A DNA stretch of 64,000 nt from Nakamurella sp. PAMC28650. Lineage in GTDB: Bacteria > Actinomycetota > Actinomycetes > Mycobacteriales > Nakamurellaceae. Of the stretch, positions 1,507-15,950 are shown piece by piece; position 1 is the stretch's first letter; every line of letters begins with the position of its first letter. Location of the stretch: assembly GCF_014303395.1 (NCBI RefSeq), contig NZ_CP060298.1, positions 1,674,001 through 1,738,000 on the forward strand, given 5' to 3'. The position numbers were made by a program, and so were the translations under genes. Below the pieces are notes generated by a model that worked only from the letters and a program-made list of their open reading frames with translations, searched no databases and was not told where the DNA came from.

Positions 1507-2691
1507 GTGAACTTCGTCGACGCCCTCGTGATCGTCCTCCTGCTGGGAGCGGCGTGGTCGGGGTTCCGTCGTGGGTTGGTCAACTCGACGTTCGCCCTGA
1601 TCGGCGCAGTCGGTGGTGCCGTCATCGGTATCAAGATCGCGCCCCTGCTGATGAGTCACGTCAGCGACAGCACCGCAAAGGTGGCGATCGGTATCGCCTG
1701 CGTGATCCTCGGGGTCGGGATCGGCGAGATCGCCGGCGCCACGGTCGGTCGGGCCCTCTCGGACCGGGTCACCTGGCGGCCCGCGAAGGCCGTCGACCGG
1801 GGGCTCGGCCTGGTCGGCCACACCCTGGCCGTCCTGGTGGTGACCTGGATGATAGCGCTGCCGCTCGGCTCGGTTCCGTTTCCCTGGCTCGCCTCGGCCG
1901 TGCGTTCGTCGACGGTCCTGGCCCGCGTCGACAAGGTGATGCCCAGCGGCGTGCGGGACGTCTCCACCCGCATGCGCCAACTGTTCGACGACTCCGGGTT
2001 CCCGGCCATCCTCGATCCTCTGACACCCACCCCAGACGTCCAGGTCGGAGTACCGGATACGACGCTCTCGGCCTCCCCGGCGCTGCGGGCCGCCGGGCAG
2101 TCCGTGCTGAAGATCCGGGGGATCGCGACCTCCTGCTCCCGGCGGATCGAGGGCTCCGGCTTCGTCATCGCACCCGGCAAGTTGCTGACCAACGCGCATG
2201 TCGTCGCCGGTACCGACCAGGTCTCGGTCGAGCAGGGCAACGCCACTCTCGCAGCGACCGTCGTGGTGTTCGACCCGAACCGTGATCTGGCCGTGCTCGA
2301 CGTCCCCGGTCTGACCCGGGCGCCACTGAAGTTCTCCCGGACCCCGGGACAGGCACCGGATTCCGCAGCTCCGGCCGGGTATCCGCTGGACGGCCCGTTC
2401 ACCATCACACCCGGACGCATCCGTAGCGAGATCACCTTGAACGGACCCAACATCTACTCATCGGCCACGGTGAGCCGTGACGTCTACACGCTCCGCGCCA
2501 ACGTCAGGGCTGGCAACTCCGGGGGTCCGTTGCTGGCCGCAGACGGTTCGGTGCTCGGTGTGGTGTTCGGCGCCGCCATCGACAAGCCGGACATCGGATT
2601 CGCCCTGACGGCGGCCGAAGCCGCACCGGTCATCGCGGCCGGACTGGTCGACGGCACGGCAGTGGCGACCGGAGGGTGCACGGCCGATTGA
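1507..2691 (+). CDS. MarP-like membrane serine protease (CvpA domain + trypsin domain)
   Basis: The N-terminal ~170 residues hold about four hydrophobic helices of the CvpA/colicin V production type. A periplasmic trypsin-like domain follows with an intact triad: His in LLTNAHVVAG, Asp in FDPNRDLAVLDV, Ser in RAGNSGGPLL. This is the architecture of mycobacterial MarP, which is needed for acid and oxidative stress resistance. The nth-nudL-marP order with tight spacing suggests one operon. The GTG at 1507 is the likely start; an in-frame TTG at 1498 is an alternative. Confidence 0.9.
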   Translation: MNFVDALVIVLLLGAAWSGFRRGLVNSTFALIGAVGGAVIGIKIAPLLMSHVSDSTAKVAIGIACVILGVGIGEIAGATVGRALSDRVTWRPAKAVDRGLGLVGHTLAVLVVTWMIALPLGSVPFPWLASAVRSSTVLARVDKVMPSGVRDVSTRMRQLFDDSGFPAILDPLTPTPDVQVGVPDTTLSASPALRAAGQSVLKIRGIATSCSRRIEGSGFVIAPGKLLTNAHVVAGTDQVSVEQGNATLAATVVVFDPNRDLAVLDVPGLTRAPLKFSRTPGQAPDSAAPAGYPLDGPFTITPGRIRSEITLNGPNIYSSATVSRDVYTLRANVRAGNSGGPLLAADGSVLGVVFGAAIDKPDIGFALTAAEAAPVIAAGLVDGTAVATGGCTAD

Positions 2692-2744
2692 CGTGCACGG
2701 CCGATTGACGTGCACGGCCGAGTGATGTGTACGGCTGATCGAAC
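2677..2744. repeat. 17-bp tandem repeat spanning the marP stop codon
   Basis: Four head-to-tail 17-bp units (2677, 2694, 2711, 2728) of the form TGCACGGCCGATTGACG. The first two are identical and the last two are degenerate. The stop codon of the protease gene lies in unit 1 and is copied in unit 2. Similar repeats occur at the ends of acs and tadC. Confidence 0.9.
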
Positions 2745-2792
2745 GGCTCTCCGGATGAGGAGGTTCGGCCGTCGGCCCGGGACGAGGAGCGG

Positions 2793-3857
2793 TCAGCCGA
2801 GGAAATCGAGAACGGCGGCGCGTACCAGATCCGGAGCTTCCTCGGCGGCGTAGTGGCCGACGCCCGGAATGATCCGGAAGGTGTACTCACCGGCGCACAG
2901 CTCACCGGTACCGCGGAGAGCGCCGGCCGGTGTGAAGCGGTCGCCTTCGCCGACCAGATGCAGGACCGGTGCCGTCAGCCGATGTTGCAGCGCCTCGCGG
3001 TGACGGTATCCGTCCGACCGGTAGGGCGATCTGACCACCCAGCGCAACGGCTCGAGGGCTCCATGGGCGGCACCGGGGGTGACGATCGATCGCCGCATGC
3101 CGGCGATCGTGTCCGCGAAGTCTGCGGACGCCGCCCAGGCCGGCCCGGCGTGGGATCTCACGATCCGCTCGAGCATCGCCCCGCCGGCCGCCGCCAGCCG
3201 GCGATCCGGACTGATCGGCAGGGCTGCGAAGGTGAGAAGTCGACCGTAGGGGTCGGTTCGGATCGGCCTGCGGAGCCTGGCCATCCGGATCGGGTGCGGC
3301 GCCGAGATCGCCACCACGGAACGGATCTGCTCCGGGTACATGATCGCCGTGTTGAAGGCCAGCACCCCACCGTATCCCTGACCGAGCAGCGTGGCCTGGC
3401 GTTCGCCCAGCGCTCTGACCATTCCCGCGACGTCGGCCGCGAGGGTGAACGCGTCATAGCCGCGTGGTGGTTTGTCGGACCCCCCGGCCCCGCGCAGGTC
3501 CGCTGCGACGGCATGGAAACCAGCCGCTGCGAGGTCCGGCAGTTGGTTGCGCCAATTGGTCCAGATCCCACCGAAACCGTGCAGCATCAAGACCAATGGG
3601 CCCGTACCGGCCTCGGCCAGATGGAATCTGATGCCGTTGGCACTGACCGACCGGTGAGAAACGCCGGCGATCGCAGTGTCCGTGGTGAGGCTGCTGGTGC
3701 TGAGGCCGCTGATGGTCACGCCGCCGGTGGTGAGGCCGCCGGCCGCGGGCACACCGGTGGCGAGGCTGCCCACCGCAGGGCCGGTCGCGGCAGGCGTTGT
3801 GAGGTCGTGCTCACGCCGTGTCTCGTGGGCCGGCTCGTCCGGCTCGTCACTGCTCAC
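2793..3857 (-). CDS. Alpha/beta hydrolase fold protein with atypical nucleophile elbow
   Basis: After ~65 residues of Thr/Gly/Ser-rich low complexity, an alpha/beta hydrolase core begins (oxyanion HGFGG, DLRGAGGSDKP, C-terminal GVGHYAAEE with the catalytic His). The elbow normally reads G-x-S/D-x-G but here is GQGYGG, with Gly where the Ser or Asp nucleophile should be. It resembles epoxide hydrolase-like proteins otherwise. The protein may be non-catalytic, or may use another residue. It ends convergently with marP. Confidence 0.8.
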   Translation of the reverse strand: MSSDEPDEPAHETRREHDLTTPAATGPAVGSLATGVPAAGGLTTGGVTISGLSTSSLTTDTAIAGVSHRSVSANGIRFHLAEAGTGPLVLMLHGFGGIWTNWRNQLPDLAAAGFHAVAADLRGAGGSDKPPRGYDAFTLAADVAGMVRALGERQATLLGQGYGGVLAFNTAIMYPEQIRSVVAISAPHPIRMARLRRPIRTDPYGRLLTFAALPISPDRRLAAAGGAMLERIVRSHAGPAWAASADFADTIAGMRRSIVTPGAAHGALEPLRWVVRSPYRSDGYRHREALQHRLTAPVLHLVGEGDRFTPAGALRGTGELCAGEYTFRIIPGVGHYAAEEAPDLVRAAVLDFLG

Positions 3858-10131: not shown

Positions 10132-11199
10132 ATGGATGCACGACCGTTGATCGTGACCGGCGACGAGCTGATGCTCGACGATCTGCTGAGAGTGGCGGCG
10201 GCGGCCGGCGTCGAGGTGGCGCACAGCGTCGACCCGGGGGCAAGGACGGCCTGGCGGGCCGCCGCGATGGTGTTGATCGATCGGGCACTCGTTCCAGAGG
10301 CCGTCGGTGCCCGGTTGATGCCGCGCCGCCATGTGATCGCCGTGGGACGGGGAGAGCCCGACGCCGGCAACCTGAAGAGCTGCCTGAGTCTGGGGGTCGA
10401 GCAGAGCCTGCGGGTGGGCGACGACGACGAGAGCCTGATCGAGTTGCTGGCCGGGACGATGTCGAGGGGGCCGGGGGACGGACATCTGGTGGCCGTGATC
10501 GGTGCCTGCGGGGGAGCCGGGGCCTCCGTGTTCGCCTCGGCGCTCGCGGCCACTGCGGAGCGGGCCGGCCGCGGGGTGCTGCTGGCCGACTGCGACCCCT
10601 GGGGTTCCGGACTCGACGTGCTGCTCGGGGTCGAGGACCGGGGTGGCGTCCGGTGGGACGAACTGGCGGCGCCGTCCGGCCGGCTCCCGCCGGACGCACT
10701 GCACCGCGCTCTGCCGGCCGCCCCATTCGGTCACGGTCGGATCGCCGTGCTGTGCCACGCTCGATCGGGCGGCCGGGAGATCCCCGGCGGTGTGGTGGAC
10801 GTGGTGATCGAGGCCGGACGCAGGGCCGGTGATCTGACGGTCGTCGACCTCCCGCGGCACCCGACCCAGGCGGGCGACCGGGTCATCGAGAAGGCCGACA
10901 TGGTGCTGCTGGTCACCACGGCCGACGTCCGGGGGTGCTACGCGGCAGCGCGGATCTCGGATCGGCTCCAGCAGCTCGGGGCCTCGCCCGAGCTGGTGGT
11001 CCGCGGGCCGTCGCCCGGTGGCATCGGGGCCGACGACATCGGTGCGGTGCTCAGGCTTCCCGTGCTGGCCCGGATGCGTCCGCAGCCGTCCCTGTCCCGT
11101 GACCTGGAGAACGGACGGGCGCCGGGCACCGATACGCATGGCCCTCTGGTCAAAGCGGCCAGGACCGTGCTCGCCCGATTGCATCAGGAGGTCTCGTGA
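10132..11199 (+). CDS. Ssd/TadZ (CpaE-like) MinD-family ATPase
   Basis: 355 residues with an N-terminal receiver-like domain lacking obvious phosphorylation residues, then a MinD/ParA-type fold. The P-loop GACGGAGASVFAS is deviant, without the usual GKT lysine cluster, as in Ssd/CpaE proteins. Later motifs are LLADCDPWGSGLD and LTVVDLPRHP. In pilus loci this family positions the Tad machinery, and mycobacterial Ssd affects septation. ATG 10132 has a GGGAGGGG ribosome-binding site. The stop overlaps the tadA GTG. Confidence 0.85.
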   Translation: MDARPLIVTGDELMLDDLLRVAAAAGVEVAHSVDPGARTAWRAAAMVLIDRALVPEAVGARLMPRRHVIAVGRGEPDAGNLKSCLSLGVEQSLRVGDDDESLIELLAGTMSRGPGDGHLVAVIGACGGAGASVFASALAATAERAGRGVLLADCDPWGSGLDVLLGVEDRGGVRWDELAAPSGRLPPDALHRALPAAPFGHGRIAVLCHARSGGREIPGGVVDVVIEAGRRAGDLTVVDLPRHPTQAGDRVIEKADMVLLVTTADVRGCYAAARISDRLQQLGASPELVVRGPSPGGIGADDIGAVLRLPVLARMRPQPSLSRDLENGRAPGTDTHGPLVKAARTVLARLHQEVS

Positions 11200-12056
11200 C
11201 CGTCCCGGCCGGCGTGGCCCCGGCGCTGCTCACCGAGCAACTGATCGAGAGCATCCAACGTCGCCTTGCCCGCGAGCGCAGCGAACCGACCGGAGTCGCG
11301 CTGGCCCGCGCGTTGCGGGCCGAGACGTCCGTGCTGGTCACCGACGCAGAGATGCTGAAGCTGATCCGGCAGTTGGAACGCGAGCTGGTCGGTACCGGGC
11401 CGCTGGCCGAACTGCTCGCCGATCCGCAGACCACGGACGTGGTGGTCAACTCGCCCGACGACGTCAGGGTCGATCGCGGGGCGGGCTGGGAGCGCACTCC
11501 GGTCACCTTCGCCGACGAGGCGGCGGTGCAGCGCCTGGCCCGTCGGCTCGCCTCACTGGCCGGGCAACGGCTGGACGAGGCGCAGCCCTTCGTCGACGCC
11601 CGGCTCGCCGACGGGACCCGTCTGCATGCCGTCATTCCGCCGCTCGCGGCCTCGGGGAGCTGCCTGTCACTGCGTGTCCTGCGACCCACCACACATGACC
11701 TGCAGGCGTTGTCGGACGCCGGAACGCTCCCTGGAGTGGCGCCGGCCGTGGTCCGCGCGGTGCTGACGGCGAGGTTGGCGTTTCTGGTGTCGGGTGGGAC
11801 GGGGTCCGGCAAGACCACCTTGCTCGGGGCCATGCTGGCGGCCGTCGATCCGGCCGAGCGACTGGTCACCGTCGAGGATGCCGAGGAGCTCCGGCCGCCA
11901 CATCCGCATCTGATCCGGTTGGTGGCCAGGGCGGCGAACGTCGAGGGCGCCGGGAACGTGCAGCTCCGTCAGTTGGTACGGCAGGCGTTGCGGATGCGAC
12001 CCGACCGGATCGTGGTCACGCTGTCAACCCAACGGGTCGCATCGATCACCGTGTGA
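11196..12056 (+). pseudogene. tadA: TadA/CpaF secretion ATPase, 5' part interrupted by the prophage
   Basis: Type II/IV secretion ATPase that would power the Tad (Flp-type) pilus or secretion machine with TadB/TadC. The 274 host codons include the Walker A motif GGTGSGKTTLL and run into the Walker B region at RMRPDRIVV, where the prophage begins. The frame then continues 12 unrelated residues into phage DNA to a TGA at 12056. Without GEVRG and the C-terminal domain the product should be inactive. The rest of the gene is at 59091-59456 and joins in frame. Confidence 0.93.
11999..12030. other. attL, left prophage junction
   Basis: Host tadA sequence GACCGGATCGT is followed by GGTC (12014-12017), then by phage sequence ACGCTGTCAA. 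The only sequence shared with attR is GGTC. The junction is placed by reconstruction of tadA: base 12017 joined to base 59091 gives PDRIVV-GEVRG in frame. Confidence 0.85.
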
Positions 12057-12977: not shown

Positions 12978-15950
12978 ATGCTGTGGTTACTCACTTTTAC
13001 CTTTGGTTCAGCGCTAACTCTCTGTGGGTTGGCGTTGAACCGGCGTTGGGAGCAATTCAAGATGGACATCAAGCTTGTCACGTACGAGTTGACGTTCCCG
13101 CATGACCTTTCACGGCAACAAGCCACTCGATTGTTCTCGGCCTTGGCTGGATTATACCCTCACCTGCGAAAGTACAGCATCAGAGCTCGGCCCTCTCTGG
13201 TGTTTGAGATCCTTGGCAACGAGCGAGGCCTTCATCACTTCGTCAGCTTCCCGAGCGAGCTCGCTGATGTTGTAGCTGGCCACTTGCAAGCCGTCATACC
13301 GTCCATCGGGTTCAAGAAGTACGAGGACTTCTCTATTGGGCTGAATCGCCAGTGGACTCATGGCGCTCAACTCGGCGTCCGGCAGACGTTGATAAGCCCG
13401 GATGGCAAGCCTGCGGAGTTGGACGACAAGATGATAAGCGTCTTGCTGGGGAGTATGAGACAGCTGCAACAGGGAGACTATGTCATCGTTCAGTGGGTGG
13501 TTACGCCAACGGGTTCTGACGATGAGTACCGAGCCGTTGGACGACTCGGAGTCTCCGCACCGAATGCTATCCGCGGTCTCGAATTGATGAAGCGTGTTAT
13601 CGCGGCTTACCGCAGCCTCCAGGTGTTTGTCTTTCGGTCGTTCCGTTCTGAGGGCAGCCTGGCGAAGATCACCAACCGATCCGCGCCCATCGAGTACTGG
13701 CCGAGTTATATCTCTGCCGTTGATCTTCCTGTCGTCGCCGGATTGCCTATCGATGGGCCCCAGGTTCCAGGTATGGAGTTGGGTAAAGGTCGACGTCTCG
13801 TCGCTTCTGCACGAATCCCACAGGATGGCTTTCGGATCGGCACTTCCAGTTACCCAGGGCACGGCCGGCCGTTGGCTATCGCTCCTGAGAGTCTTCTCCG
13901 TCACCTTTGGGTGCTCGGTCCGACCGGCTGTCTTCATCCAGACACGGTAATCATCGACCCAATCGACCACTCACGTCTTACCGTACGTCAACGTCATGAA
14001 GCTGCCGTTCCGTTCCACGTTTTATCACTTGACGGTGAAGAAGTGGTTGTAGCCGTTGCTTGTGCACCAGTGAAATATCAAAAAGTTCCCATGTACCGAG
14101 TCAGCGATGGCACTAACAGCATCACGGTTACTGGTCACCATCGAGTATGGGATGGTAGCCAGTACGTTCAGTGTGACGAGCTTTATGCGCAGCAAGAAGC
14201 TTCGCACGTCCTTCTTCCGACCATTGCGGGCGACGACCTTTCAAAGTTGTTGCAAGGTGCGCAGCGTTGGTCGGGAAAACTCGAAGGTTTTCAAGGCGAT
14301 TATCGCCCTTCACCCCGTTTATATGGTCAACAACTTCGCCCGGCGAGAGATAGCGGCCTAGCTCCTGTTCCATCACGACCCGATGTTCTCGAACATACCC
14401 AGCAGCGCTGCGATAAGGATGATCGTCATCCTTCAAAAGGATGTACCCAGACTTATCGACTGTACGGCCACCGTTCCAGAAGTGATTACTGGAATCTTTC
14501 GAACCTCGACCGCGAGAAGGTAGACCAGCAGCACCGAGATATTTTCTCGTCGACTTCCTTGTCACGCCCATTTGTTTCTGAATCTGAAGTTCGCTCATTC
14601 CCTGATGGTACAAAGAGATACACTGAGCAATCTGAGTTACGGTCCACGCTTTTCCCACACGTTGGTTCCTTGTTTAACTATTCCCATCTTAGCTCATATC
14701 GGGTCGAACGGGTAGAGGATGAGTACTATTATGATTTTCATGTACCCGAGTTAGAGAACTACTACGCTGAAGGTCTGTTCCATCACAACAGCGGCAAATC
14801 AACACTCCTTCACAATCTCGCCGCACAGGTCATGGAGCAGGAGTATGGACTCATTCTCATAGAGCCGAAAGGCGACCTTTCGAGGCAAGTACTCGACAGC
14901 ATCCCGAAAAAGCGGGTTGATGATGTCGTCTGGTTCAACCCACTTGATAAGGACTGGCCTATCGCCCTCAACATTCTGGATGGTCCTGACCCAGAACAGA
15001 CGGCCGGCCAAGTCGTGGGACTCTTTAGAACGCTTTACGGAAGTTCCTGGGGACCGCGCTTGGAGATGATCCTGAAGTATGCGGTACTGACTGCCGCGTT
15101 GAATAAGCTCACCCTCTACGACGTCAAACACATGCTGTTCGATTCAAAATACCGGAACGCACTCGCCGCGAAGTCAGGCAGCGTGGACGTCAAACTGTTC
15201 TGGTCCACGTACAAGGACGACAAGACCTCCGACTTCGACTCCGTCATGAACAAGCTCGATGCCTTCGTGGGACTCAGCGTCATTCGTAACATCACCGGCC
15301 AGCCGAGCGGTGACGCTAGGGGGCTGAATCTACGTGAAGTCGTGAACGAAAATAAGATTCTGATCGTGCCGTTAACCAGAGAAATCGGCGAGACGACCGC
15401 AAGTATGCTTGGTTCGATCATCATGACTCAGTTGTGGCAAGAGGTACAGAGTCGTAAAACCCGCAAACCGGTGTACTTCATGATCGACGAGGCGCAACGC
15501 TTCATGGGCACGGCTACTTCAGTAGAGGACATACTCAGTCAAGCACGCAGCTACGGTATGGGCGTGATCCTCGCTAACCAGAATGTGGATCAGATCAAGC
15601 CTGCATCACTACTGAGTGCGTTCAAGGCAAATACTGCATCGAAGATCGTGTTCAAGCTTGGTTATGACGATGCTTTAGTGATGGCCCGTGATTTCAAGCC
15701 CCTTGATGCGAGCAACCTTCAAGGACTTGATGAGCACGAGGTTGCTGCTCTGCTGCTGACGCCTACTGGTACTGCTGGCGTAGCAACTGTGGCCACGTCT
15801 AGGCCCCCAGGACGAACTGCGCACGGCACAGCTGCTTGGCAAGCCTCACGTGACAAGTACGGCCGAGCTGTGGCTGACGTTGAAGTTGAGTTCGAGGCGA
15901 AGTTCGGGGTCAAGGAGAAGGTCAAGCAGTCGATCGGTCACATGCCATGA
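12978..15950 (+). CDS. VirD4/TraD-like DNA-translocating ATPase with an intein in its P-loop
   Basis: 990-residue precursor. An N-terminal hydrophobic segment (~1-20) and a ~300-residue domain precede the Walker A motif. That motif is split: ...LWVLGPTG (ends at residue 317), intein (318-604), then SGKSTLLHNLA. After splicing the protein would be 703 residues. Downstream are LILIEPKGDL, Walker B in PVYFMIDEAQRF, and ANQNVDQIKP near the sensor region, all typical of T4SS coupling or HerA-type ATPases. Such proteins pump DNA across membranes in conjugation. With the replication-relaxation protein downstream it suggests a DNA transfer or processing role. ATPase activity should require intein splicing. 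Confidence 0.85.
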   Translation: MLWLLTFTFGSALTLCGLALNRRWEQFKMDIKLVTYELTFPHDLSRQQATRLFSALAGLYPHLRKYSIRARPSLVFEILGNERGLHHFVSFPSELADVVAGHLQAVIPSIGFKKYEDFSIGLNRQWTHGAQLGVRQTLISPDGKPAELDDKMISVLLGSMRQLQQGDYVIVQWVVTPTGSDDEYRAVGRLGVSAPNAIRGLELMKRVIAAYRSLQVFVFRSFRSEGSLAKITNRSAPIEYWPSYISAVDLPVVAGLPIDGPQVPGMELGKGRRLVASARIPQDGFRIGTSSYPGHGRPLAIAPESLLRHLWVLGPTGCLHPDTVIIDPIDHSRLTVRQRHEAAVPFHVLSLDGEEVVVAVACAPVKYQKVPMYRVSDGTNSITVTGHHRVWDGSQYVQCDELYAQQEASHVLLPTIAGDDLSKLLQGAQRWSGKLEGFQGDYRPSPRLYGQQLRPARDSGLAPVPSRPDVLEHTQQRCDKDDRHPSKGCTQTYRLYGHRSRSDYWNLSNLDREKVDQQHRDIFSSTSLSRPFVSESEVRSFPDGTKRYTEQSELRSTLFPHVGSLFNYSHLSSYRVERVEDEYYYDFHVPELENYYAEGLFHHNSGKSTLLHNLAAQVMEQEYGLILIEPKGDLSRQVLDSIPKKRVDDVVWFNPLDKDWPIALNILDGPDPEQTAGQVVGLFRTLYGSSWGPRLEMILKYAVLTAALNKLTLYDVKHMLFDSKYRNALAAKSGSVDVKLFWSTYKDDKTSDFDSVMNKLDAFVGLSVIRNITGQPSGDARGLNLREVVNENKILIVPLTREIGETTASMLGSIIMTQLWQEVQSRKTRKPVYFMIDEAQRFMGTATSVEDILSQARSYGMGVILANQNVDQIKPASLLSAFKANTASKIVFKLGYDDALVMARDFKPLDASNLQGLDEHEVAALLLTPTGTAGVATVATSRPPGRTAHGTAAWQASRDKYGRAVADVEVEFEAKFGVKEKVKQSIGHMP
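13929..14789 (+). other. Intein (287 codons) in the Walker A motif
   Basis: Begins with Cys (residue 318; block A CLHPDTVIID). Block B is NSITVTGHHRVW with the conserved T..H. It ends with block F, DEYYYDFHVPELENYYAEG, and LFHHN with the terminal His-Asn, followed by Ser+1 of the extein. All residues needed for class 1 protein splicing are present. The middle (about residues 420-560) has no LAGLIDADG or HNH motif in this frame and reads as unnatural Arg/Ser/Gln-rich sequence, because it is the complement of the HNH gene on the other strand. Confidence 0.9.
14128..14658 (-). CDS. HTH-HNH homing endonuclease encoded antisense inside the intein
   Basis: 176 residues from GTG 14658, with an AAGGA Shine-Dalgarno 8 nt upstream (14667-14671 on this strand). 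Residues ~5-45 form a helix-turn-helix (ELQIQKQMGVTRKSTRKYL). The HNH_3-type nuclease core has GYVREHRVVMEQELGR, the catalytic region VVDHINGVKGDNR and LENLRVF. Its 3' end runs antisense through intein block B. The gene lies wholly within the intein and should target intein-less alleles of the ATPase gene. Homing endonucleases in inteins are normally in frame with the splicing domain, so this orientation is exceptional. Motif recognition is strong; activity is inferred. Confidence 0.88.
   Translation of the reverse strand: MGKAWTVTQIAQCISLYHQGMSELQIQKQMGVTRKSTRKYLGAAGLPSRGRGSKDSSNHFWNGGRTVDKSGYILLKDDDHPYRSAAGYVREHRVVMEQELGRYLSPGEVVDHINGVKGDNRLENLRVFPTNAAHLATTLKGRRPQWSEEGRAKLLAAHKARHTERTGYHPILDGDQ

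Follow-up and report, generated by a model that had tools for sequence, protein, structure and literature searches.

A Walker A intein with an HTH-HNH endonuclease gene nested on the opposite strand

Introduction

Can the homing endonuclease of an intein be encoded on the strand opposite to the one that encodes the intein itself? This question is raised by an intein that splits the Walker A motif of a coupling-protein ATPase gene of Nakamurella sp. PAMC28650, within a 64,000-nucleotide (nt) stretch of the genome (positions 1,674,001 to 1,738,000 of contig NZ_CP060298.1, forward strand), hereafter the window. Inteins are usually described as carrying an in-frame endonuclease or having lost it. 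The bifunctional (large) inteins, for example, those of the PI-MtuI type, contain an in-frame homing endonuclease domain, and in the fractured genes, a free-standing endonuclease gene lies between the halves of a split intein. A preliminary description of the window, made from the sequence alone, proposed that homing and splicing are encoded separately at this locus, on the two strands of the same DNA. We find that both strands indeed code and that the endonuclease is encoded outside the intein's own frame; comparative sequence analysis makes it likely that the product of the intact antisense helix-turn-helix (HTH)-HNH gene is the homing endonuclease of this Walker A intein.

Results

The intein and the antisense gene of the window

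The features of the locus, with the evidence for each in parentheses, are the following:

12978-15950, plus strand: ATPase open reading frame (ORF) of 990 amino acids including the intein, a VirD4/TrwB-like coupling-protein ATPase, the intein host protein (Pfam, homologues)
13917-13928, plus strand: N-side half of Walker A, GPTG (sequence, homologue alignment)
13929-14789, plus strand: intein of 287 residues, from C1 to HHN (family profile, N block 122 bits, C block 59 bits)
13929-14273, plus strand: N-terminal splicing part, intein residues 1-115, with block B at 14130-14141 (AlphaFold2, sequence)
14274-14675, plus strand: sense-strand middle of the intein, residues 116-249, predicted to be disordered, complement of the HNH gene (pLDDT, the per-residue confidence score; no family match in its own frame)
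14676-14789, plus strand: C-terminal splicing part, residues 250-287, YYDFHVP...GLFHHN (family profile, AlphaFold2)
14790-14804, plus strand: C-side half of Walker A, SGKST, with Ser as the +1 residue (sequence, homologue alignment)
14128-14658, minus strand: HTH-HNH endonuclease gene, 176 amino acids, GTG start, antisense and wholly inside the intein (Pfam, PHROGs, family profile 216.6 bits, mean pLDDT 84.9)
14667-14671, minus strand: AAGGA, a Shine-Dalgarno-like site 8 nt before the GTG (sequence)

The intein splits Walker A exactly between GPTG and SGKST and is absent in all seven aligned homologues. In these intein-less proteins from the protein search (P0003-P0009; 695-748 amino acids), GxxG is joined directly to xGKST, with zero residues in the intein columns, so that the insert is precise and in frame. 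The C-terminal half of the ATPase matches the Pfam families TrwB_AAD_bind (E=5.3e-07) and TraG-D_C (E=2.6e-05). The intein contains Cys1, T68-x-x-H71 in block B, the C-terminal HHN, and Ser at +1, and by these residues, we take it to be of the class 1 type. The frame is open through the entire ATPase, and the N and C parts belong to a single reading frame (12978-15950) rather than to separate polypeptides as in a split intein.

In the intein's own frame, the sole Pfam match is Intein_splicing (E=4.2e-05), whose 23.8 bits fall short of the gathering score (35.8), NCBIfam gave just weak matches to intein N and C models, and PHROGs gave no match whatever; none of the three collections detected an endonuclease family, such that the window intein has no recognizable counterpart of the own-frame domain of bifunctional inteins. 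A profile of 21 intein family members matches chains of solved DnaB mini-inteins in PDB (best E=1.1e-09) which, together with a confident beta model of both intein ends, supports a Hint fold. In this AlphaFold2 model (21-row alignment), confident beta structure covers residues 1 to about 115 and 250-287, with block means of pLDDT mostly above 80 up to residue 110, and pLDDT is below 50 across nearly all of residues 116-249. A sense-frame endonuclease domain was accordingly rejected, given the lack of a family match and the disordered model.

The antisense ORF matches HNH_3 (E=1.6e-12; 47.2 bits, cut-off 24.8) and phrog_10730, annotated as HNH endonuclease (E=2.4e-26), and the support for the HTH domain is weak (HTH_23, E=0.022). 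Across 19 aligned nested HNH proteins, E91, H92, R93, H112, N120, N124, and H134 are invariant. The AlphaFold2 model of the HNH protein (19 rows; mean pLDDT 84.9) includes three N-terminal helices (residues 7-43) and a beta-beta-alpha HNH region. Given the disordered sense middle and this folded model, one and the same DNA stretch is predicted to specify a folded protein when read from the antisense strand and a loop when read from the sense strand.

The preliminary description correctly placed the intein and the antisense ORF, with both frames intact, and was also right on the complete splicing motifs without an own-frame endonuclease motif, on the 176-residue HTH-HNH protein, weak as the HTH matches are, and on the AAGGA before the GTG. 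Its claim that the 3' end of the HNH gene runs antisense through block B holds in part: the overlap exists (codons 14130-14141) but involves just the last few HNH codons and the stop. An assembly error is ruled out by the one-contig genome of 5.63 Mb, the integrity of both frames, and the presence of the same design in many independent contigs.

Nested HNH genes in viral contigs and named phages

A search of viral contigs with the alignment of nested HNH proteins yielded at least 600 pattern matches and 572 relatives, the best 80 of which comprised the HNH-led sample. In 78 of these best 80, the whole HNH core is covered by a same-phase open frame on the opposite strand, nearly always with intein blocks. 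The two exceptions are locus L139, where the intein N part is followed by stops and the remainder lies off the contig, and L122, in which no intein was seen. When named phages were searched with the HNH using tblastn, 160 records matched, and among the 11 examined, the gene is nested antisense in a terminase ORF in nine: seven Pectobacterium phages, Dickeya phage Setonix, and Pseudoalteromonas phage PHS3. The Ymer ORF matches the Pfam families Terminase_6N and Terminase_6C. By annotation, the HNH in the other two records is not nested in an intein, being free-standing in MW202481.1 and located in a methylase ORF in OM373202.1.

Altogether, an opposite-strand frame of one identical phase is open across the HNH core in 112 of the 115 HNH loci, and 111 of those 112 sense frames contain intein N and C blocks, at any score; the Pfam intein model scores above the cut-off in L094, L099, L100, and L150. 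Among the 108 loci with placed intein ends, the junction is of the Walker A type in 98, and S, T, or C occupies the +1 position in 107, with the ends extrapolated from profile positions and the start falling exactly on Cys in just 83 of the 108 placements. Among the host proteins scanned are terminases, a clamp-loader-like AAA protein, strawberry-notch-like helicases, and an SMC-like protein. Thus, rather than being a single case, the window locus represents a widespread design, shared by viral contigs and by no fewer than nine records of named phages.

The evolutionary distances between HNH genes correlate with those between the splicing domains (Mantel r=0.78, P=0.001, n=88), with r=0.75 for HNH and extein and 0.68 for splicing domain and extein; the comparisons involving L096 and L097 rest on HNH remnants. 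This correlation fits joint inheritance of the HNH gene and the splicing domain.

These observations bear on the possibility that the HNH gene is a passenger, that is, a free-standing nuclease gene in a protected site, self-homing or encoding a general phage nuclease, and not matched to the intein site. Members of the wider HNH family are indeed found outside inteins, as in the two phage records above and L122. Furthermore, the HNH alignment has matches in 25 of 396 genomes of the phylum at E<=1e-15, and among the 27 loci examined there, intein blocks were detected in the window's own alone (0 of the 26 others). Within the subfamily of the window HNH, however, 79 of the best 80 sit in an intein (L139 counted), the insertion is nearly always in Walker A, and the distances correlate, so that we consider a passenger improbable. 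Position, conservation, and co-inheritance all suggest that the HNH protein is the homing endonuclease of its intein.

Selection on the two frames

Selection was estimated from 15 disjoint pairs of close relatives (2460 codons), with stops excluded from the mutation model; the third position of the HNH codon coincides with the second position of the sense-frame codon. The numbers of differences at HNH codon positions 1, 2, and 3 are 115, 97, and 345. The dN/dS ratio (omega) of the HNH is 0.273, a departure from neutrality (binomial P=6e-40), vs 1.146 for the sense frame inside the overlap, with no departure from neutrality (P=0.33). In the same pairs, sense-frame omega outside the overlap is 0.192 for the intein N part (10 pairs), 0.182 for the last 34 codons (14 pairs), and 0.107 for the C-extein (13 pairs). 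Selection on one frame can, then, be separated from that on the other, as had been proposed along with this check of dN/dS on both strands.

Stops were counted in the intein frame opposite the HNH core after shuffling synonymous HNH codons within each gene, for 95 distinct cores, the window included. Only 19 stops were observed vs a mean of 455 in the shuffles, all of them in L084, L122, and L139; the sense frame is open in 92 of the 95 cores, with 1.2 expected after shuffling. Neither of the other two opposite frames is depleted of stops (517, a number that the shuffle cannot change, and 692 vs a mean of 629). From the stop depletion and the sense omega, it follows that selection keeps the sense frame open and that the identity of the residues opposite the HNH core is not detectably constrained.

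GC-rich DNA often contains long antisense ORFs, so that the HNH might be regarded as a relic or a chance open frame, with the sense frame alone being of consequence. This view is contradicted for the family by the family matches, the disparity between the two omega values, and the folded model, and we deem it exceedingly unlikely; a chance antisense ORF is ruled out by the family match, selection, and stop depletion. Nor do we give much credence to a model without read-through, whereby the host protein would be made in two pieces via an internal start after the HNH and joined by a trans-splicing split intein, the open frame being incidental. The loci that suggest such a scheme are L084 (223-1293), an AAA ATPase gene in which stops in the sense middle terminate the intein N part, an antisense HNH follows, and a new in-frame ATG precedes the C part, and L139, with stops after the N part. 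It is very improbable given the scarcity of sense stops across the distinct cores and the persistence of an open sense frame in L096 and L097, where the insert has been shortened.

Expression signals and points against the proposed roles

Sigma-70-like promoter sites were sought in the 200 nt upstream of the HNH start, on the antisense strand, in 90 loci, with dinucleotide shuffles as the control. Sites with at most three mismatches were found in 55 of the 90 loci, compared with a mean of 23 and a maximum of 31 in the shuffles and 27 on the opposite strand; sites with at most two mismatches occur in 19 loci (shuffles: mean 3.4, maximum 8). In L180, a perfect TTGACA/TATAAT pair with 18-nt spacing is present in this region. 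Shine-Dalgarno-like sites (at least 5 nt) precede the HNH in 33 of 92 cases, compared with 10 of 92 at control positions.

Several observations weigh against an expressed antisense endonuclease in a functional intein. The best promoter-like site of the window has five mismatches, its HNH starts with GTG, a usable ATG is absent in four of the 92 cores, and many loci lack Shine-Dalgarno or promoter support. Sixteen of the 92 cores fail the strict HNH pattern, two as truncated remnants and 14 by departing at some positions, and the Pfam score of the window intein is under the gathering cut-off. The window has no close relative, such that selection was measured on its relatives and the stop test alone covers the window, and the codon test scores every difference as a single change on a single sequence.

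Relatives of the intein

When proteins were searched with the part of the ATPase that holds the intein, 10 were retrieved and compared as protein sequences only; the intein is 283-306 residues long in six of them and 157-165 in the other four. Judging from the listed Pfam domains, the hosts are coupling-protein ATPases, DnaB-like, and RecD-like proteins. With an alignment of seven inteins, built regardless of HNH, 30 loci were recovered, 29 of them in viral contigs; the single match among the genome contigs is a mini-intein in a contig of a metagenome-assembled genome. When the HNH profile was run on six-frame open segments, an HNH was found on the strand facing the intein in 25 of the 30 intein-led loci (weakly in L094, and as remnants only in L096 and L097) and in frame with it in none; the one weak plus-strand match, in L082, is outside the intein. 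The remaining five loci are short inteins without HNH (L085, L090, L092, L093, and L101). The 30 loci include duplicates (L074/L075, L077-L080, L088/L089, and L085/L101).

The viral scan with the whole window ATPase produced no matches, and tblastn with the window intein alone gave none in the viral scan and none in phages and plasmids. Extein relatives were detected in 100 of 397 genomes of the same order and, among the matches listed, the window's own is the only one to cover the intein.

A 305-codon antisense ORF lies in the terminase intein of L094 (500-1414, minus strand), matching HTH_38 and HTH_28 above the cut-off and HNH_3 weakly, below it (E=3.9e-04); perhaps, this is a divergent, second antisense endonuclease.

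Mini, decayed, and split-like forms

In L096 and L097, the HNH is reduced to its C-terminal third and the sense frame is intact; the two differ by an in-frame length difference of 33 nt and a few flanking changes. Mini-inteins that retain the splicing parts without the middle were found among the proteins (P0082, P0083, P0088, and P0089) and the loci (L092 and L093, aligned to full relatives in similar host genes, L077 and L086). We infer from the mini, remnant, and split-like forms a succession of gain, decay, and splitting. By their sequences, L084 and L139 look like a transition to the split state.

The preliminary description envisaged the inverted entry of an HNH gene into a mini-intein. 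Given the same phase in 112 of the 115 loci and the Mantel correlation, an old shared event fits, so that the inversion was probably not made in the window's own lineage; the recipient may have been a mini-intein.

A second class: same-strand overlap

The terminase of L001 is interrupted by two inteins. An antisense HNH accompanies the first, and the second (1656-2591, minus strand) overlaps another HNH_3 ORF (1726-2337, minus strand) on the same strand, in a different frame. Relatives comprise 85 loci (L220-L304), in 76 of which a same-strand +1 open frame covers the HNH. The +1 frame contains 42 stops vs 181 in shuffles, and 70 of 77 distinct cores are open, with 12 expected. Four of the overlapping ORFs (L221-L224) were scanned, and in all four, intein or Hint models of Pfam score above the cut-offs; L224 has more than one intein.

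On balance, we favor the view that overprinted inteins constitute a third homing-element architecture, with the homing gene laid across the splicing gene in a different frame, and that two independent classes exist: antisense, at Walker A of many unrelated P-loop NTPases (92 distinct open cores), and same-strand +1, in a terminase intein.

Genomic setting of the window locus

Over roughly 12.1 to 58 kb of the window (region 12056-58000), the GC content drops to 0.50-0.57, from about 0.70, and a CpaF/TadA-like ORF at 11196-12056 ends abnormally after MRPDRIVV. Taken together, these features indicate that an integrated element probably interrupts a pilus ATPase gene.

Discussion

The findings fit a scheme in which the ATPase mRNA would be translated straight through and the 287-residue intein would splice itself out, its long middle being a tolerated loop. 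The HNH would be made from a separate antisense transcript, in line with the promoter-like sites that are enriched in the relatives, not in the window, and would cut intein-less alleles, whereupon repair would copy the intein and the HNH together. The sense frame would need only to remain open, in frame, and spliceable, with the protein constraint carried by the HNH frame, and deletions that keep the sense frame could remove the HNH with the host gene surviving. The read-through and splicing half of this scheme draws on the open frames, stop depletion, and Hint features, and the HNH half on conservation and position. The outcomes named at the outset as counting against the proposal, namely, an endonuclease domain in the sense middle, an HNH frame broken in all close relatives, or a missing HNH family match, did not occur.

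The window intein shares with the PI-MtuI-type inteins the Hint splicing domain (PDB matches), insertion into a conserved motif, and an endonuclease coded inside the intein, but there the endonuclease is part of the intein polypeptide, whereas here it is on the other strand, and the homing and splicing proteins are separate products. As in the fractured-gene split inteins, a separate endonuclease gene is located between the N and C splicing parts; unlike them, the window intein is one continuous frame that the endonuclease gene overlaps antisense. The mini-inteins of the same family (P0082, P0083, P0088, and P0089; L085/L101, L090, L092, and L093) possess the same splicing blocks, several of them at Walker A, and lack the middle and the antisense HNH.

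Outside inteins, nuclear group I introns with homing endonuclease genes in antisense orientation have been described, the genes being reported to be expressed from the antisense strand (PMC9548176). These likewise place a homing gene opposite a self-splicing element; that element, however, is RNA, whereas the sense strand of the window locus must also be an open protein-coding frame. The yeast WHO elements beside FBA1 are independently transcribed homing genes, some of them oppositely oriented (PMC7282813). The opposite orientation of some and, under the scheme proposed here, the independent transcription of the homing gene are shared with the window locus, but the WHO elements are neighbors of the host coding sequence instead of being embedded in it, and no splicing is needed.

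We found no description of an antisense endonuclease gene inside an intein in the open-access literature, coverage of which was partial, with preprints and most subscription papers outside it; none is given in the accessible portions of PMC1508164, PMC9548176, PMC3203893, PMC7282813, and PMC5050341. The parts are known, and their antisense arrangement in an intein appears to be new.

Annotation is misled at such loci. In PHS3 (L183, KX912252.1), calling the antisense HNH as a neighboring gene left the large terminase subunit annotated in truncated form, at 1652-2827; the open frame runs from 1655 to 3778. In the seven Pectobacterium phages, the terminase-intein ORF is annotated as a hypothetical protein and the HNH is unlisted.

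At these loci, homing and splicing would be the functions of separate proteins encoded on opposite strands, selection can be cleanly separated by frame, and a large set of phage genes has been overlooked. They offer a natural system for studying the origin of overlapping genes, the decay of homing genes without harm to the host gene, and the origin of split inteins. If the two classes of overprinted inteins are borne out, overprinting would be nearly free because the overprinted residues are discarded by protein splicing, and inteins may serve as a nursery for overlapping genes and as a step towards split inteins.

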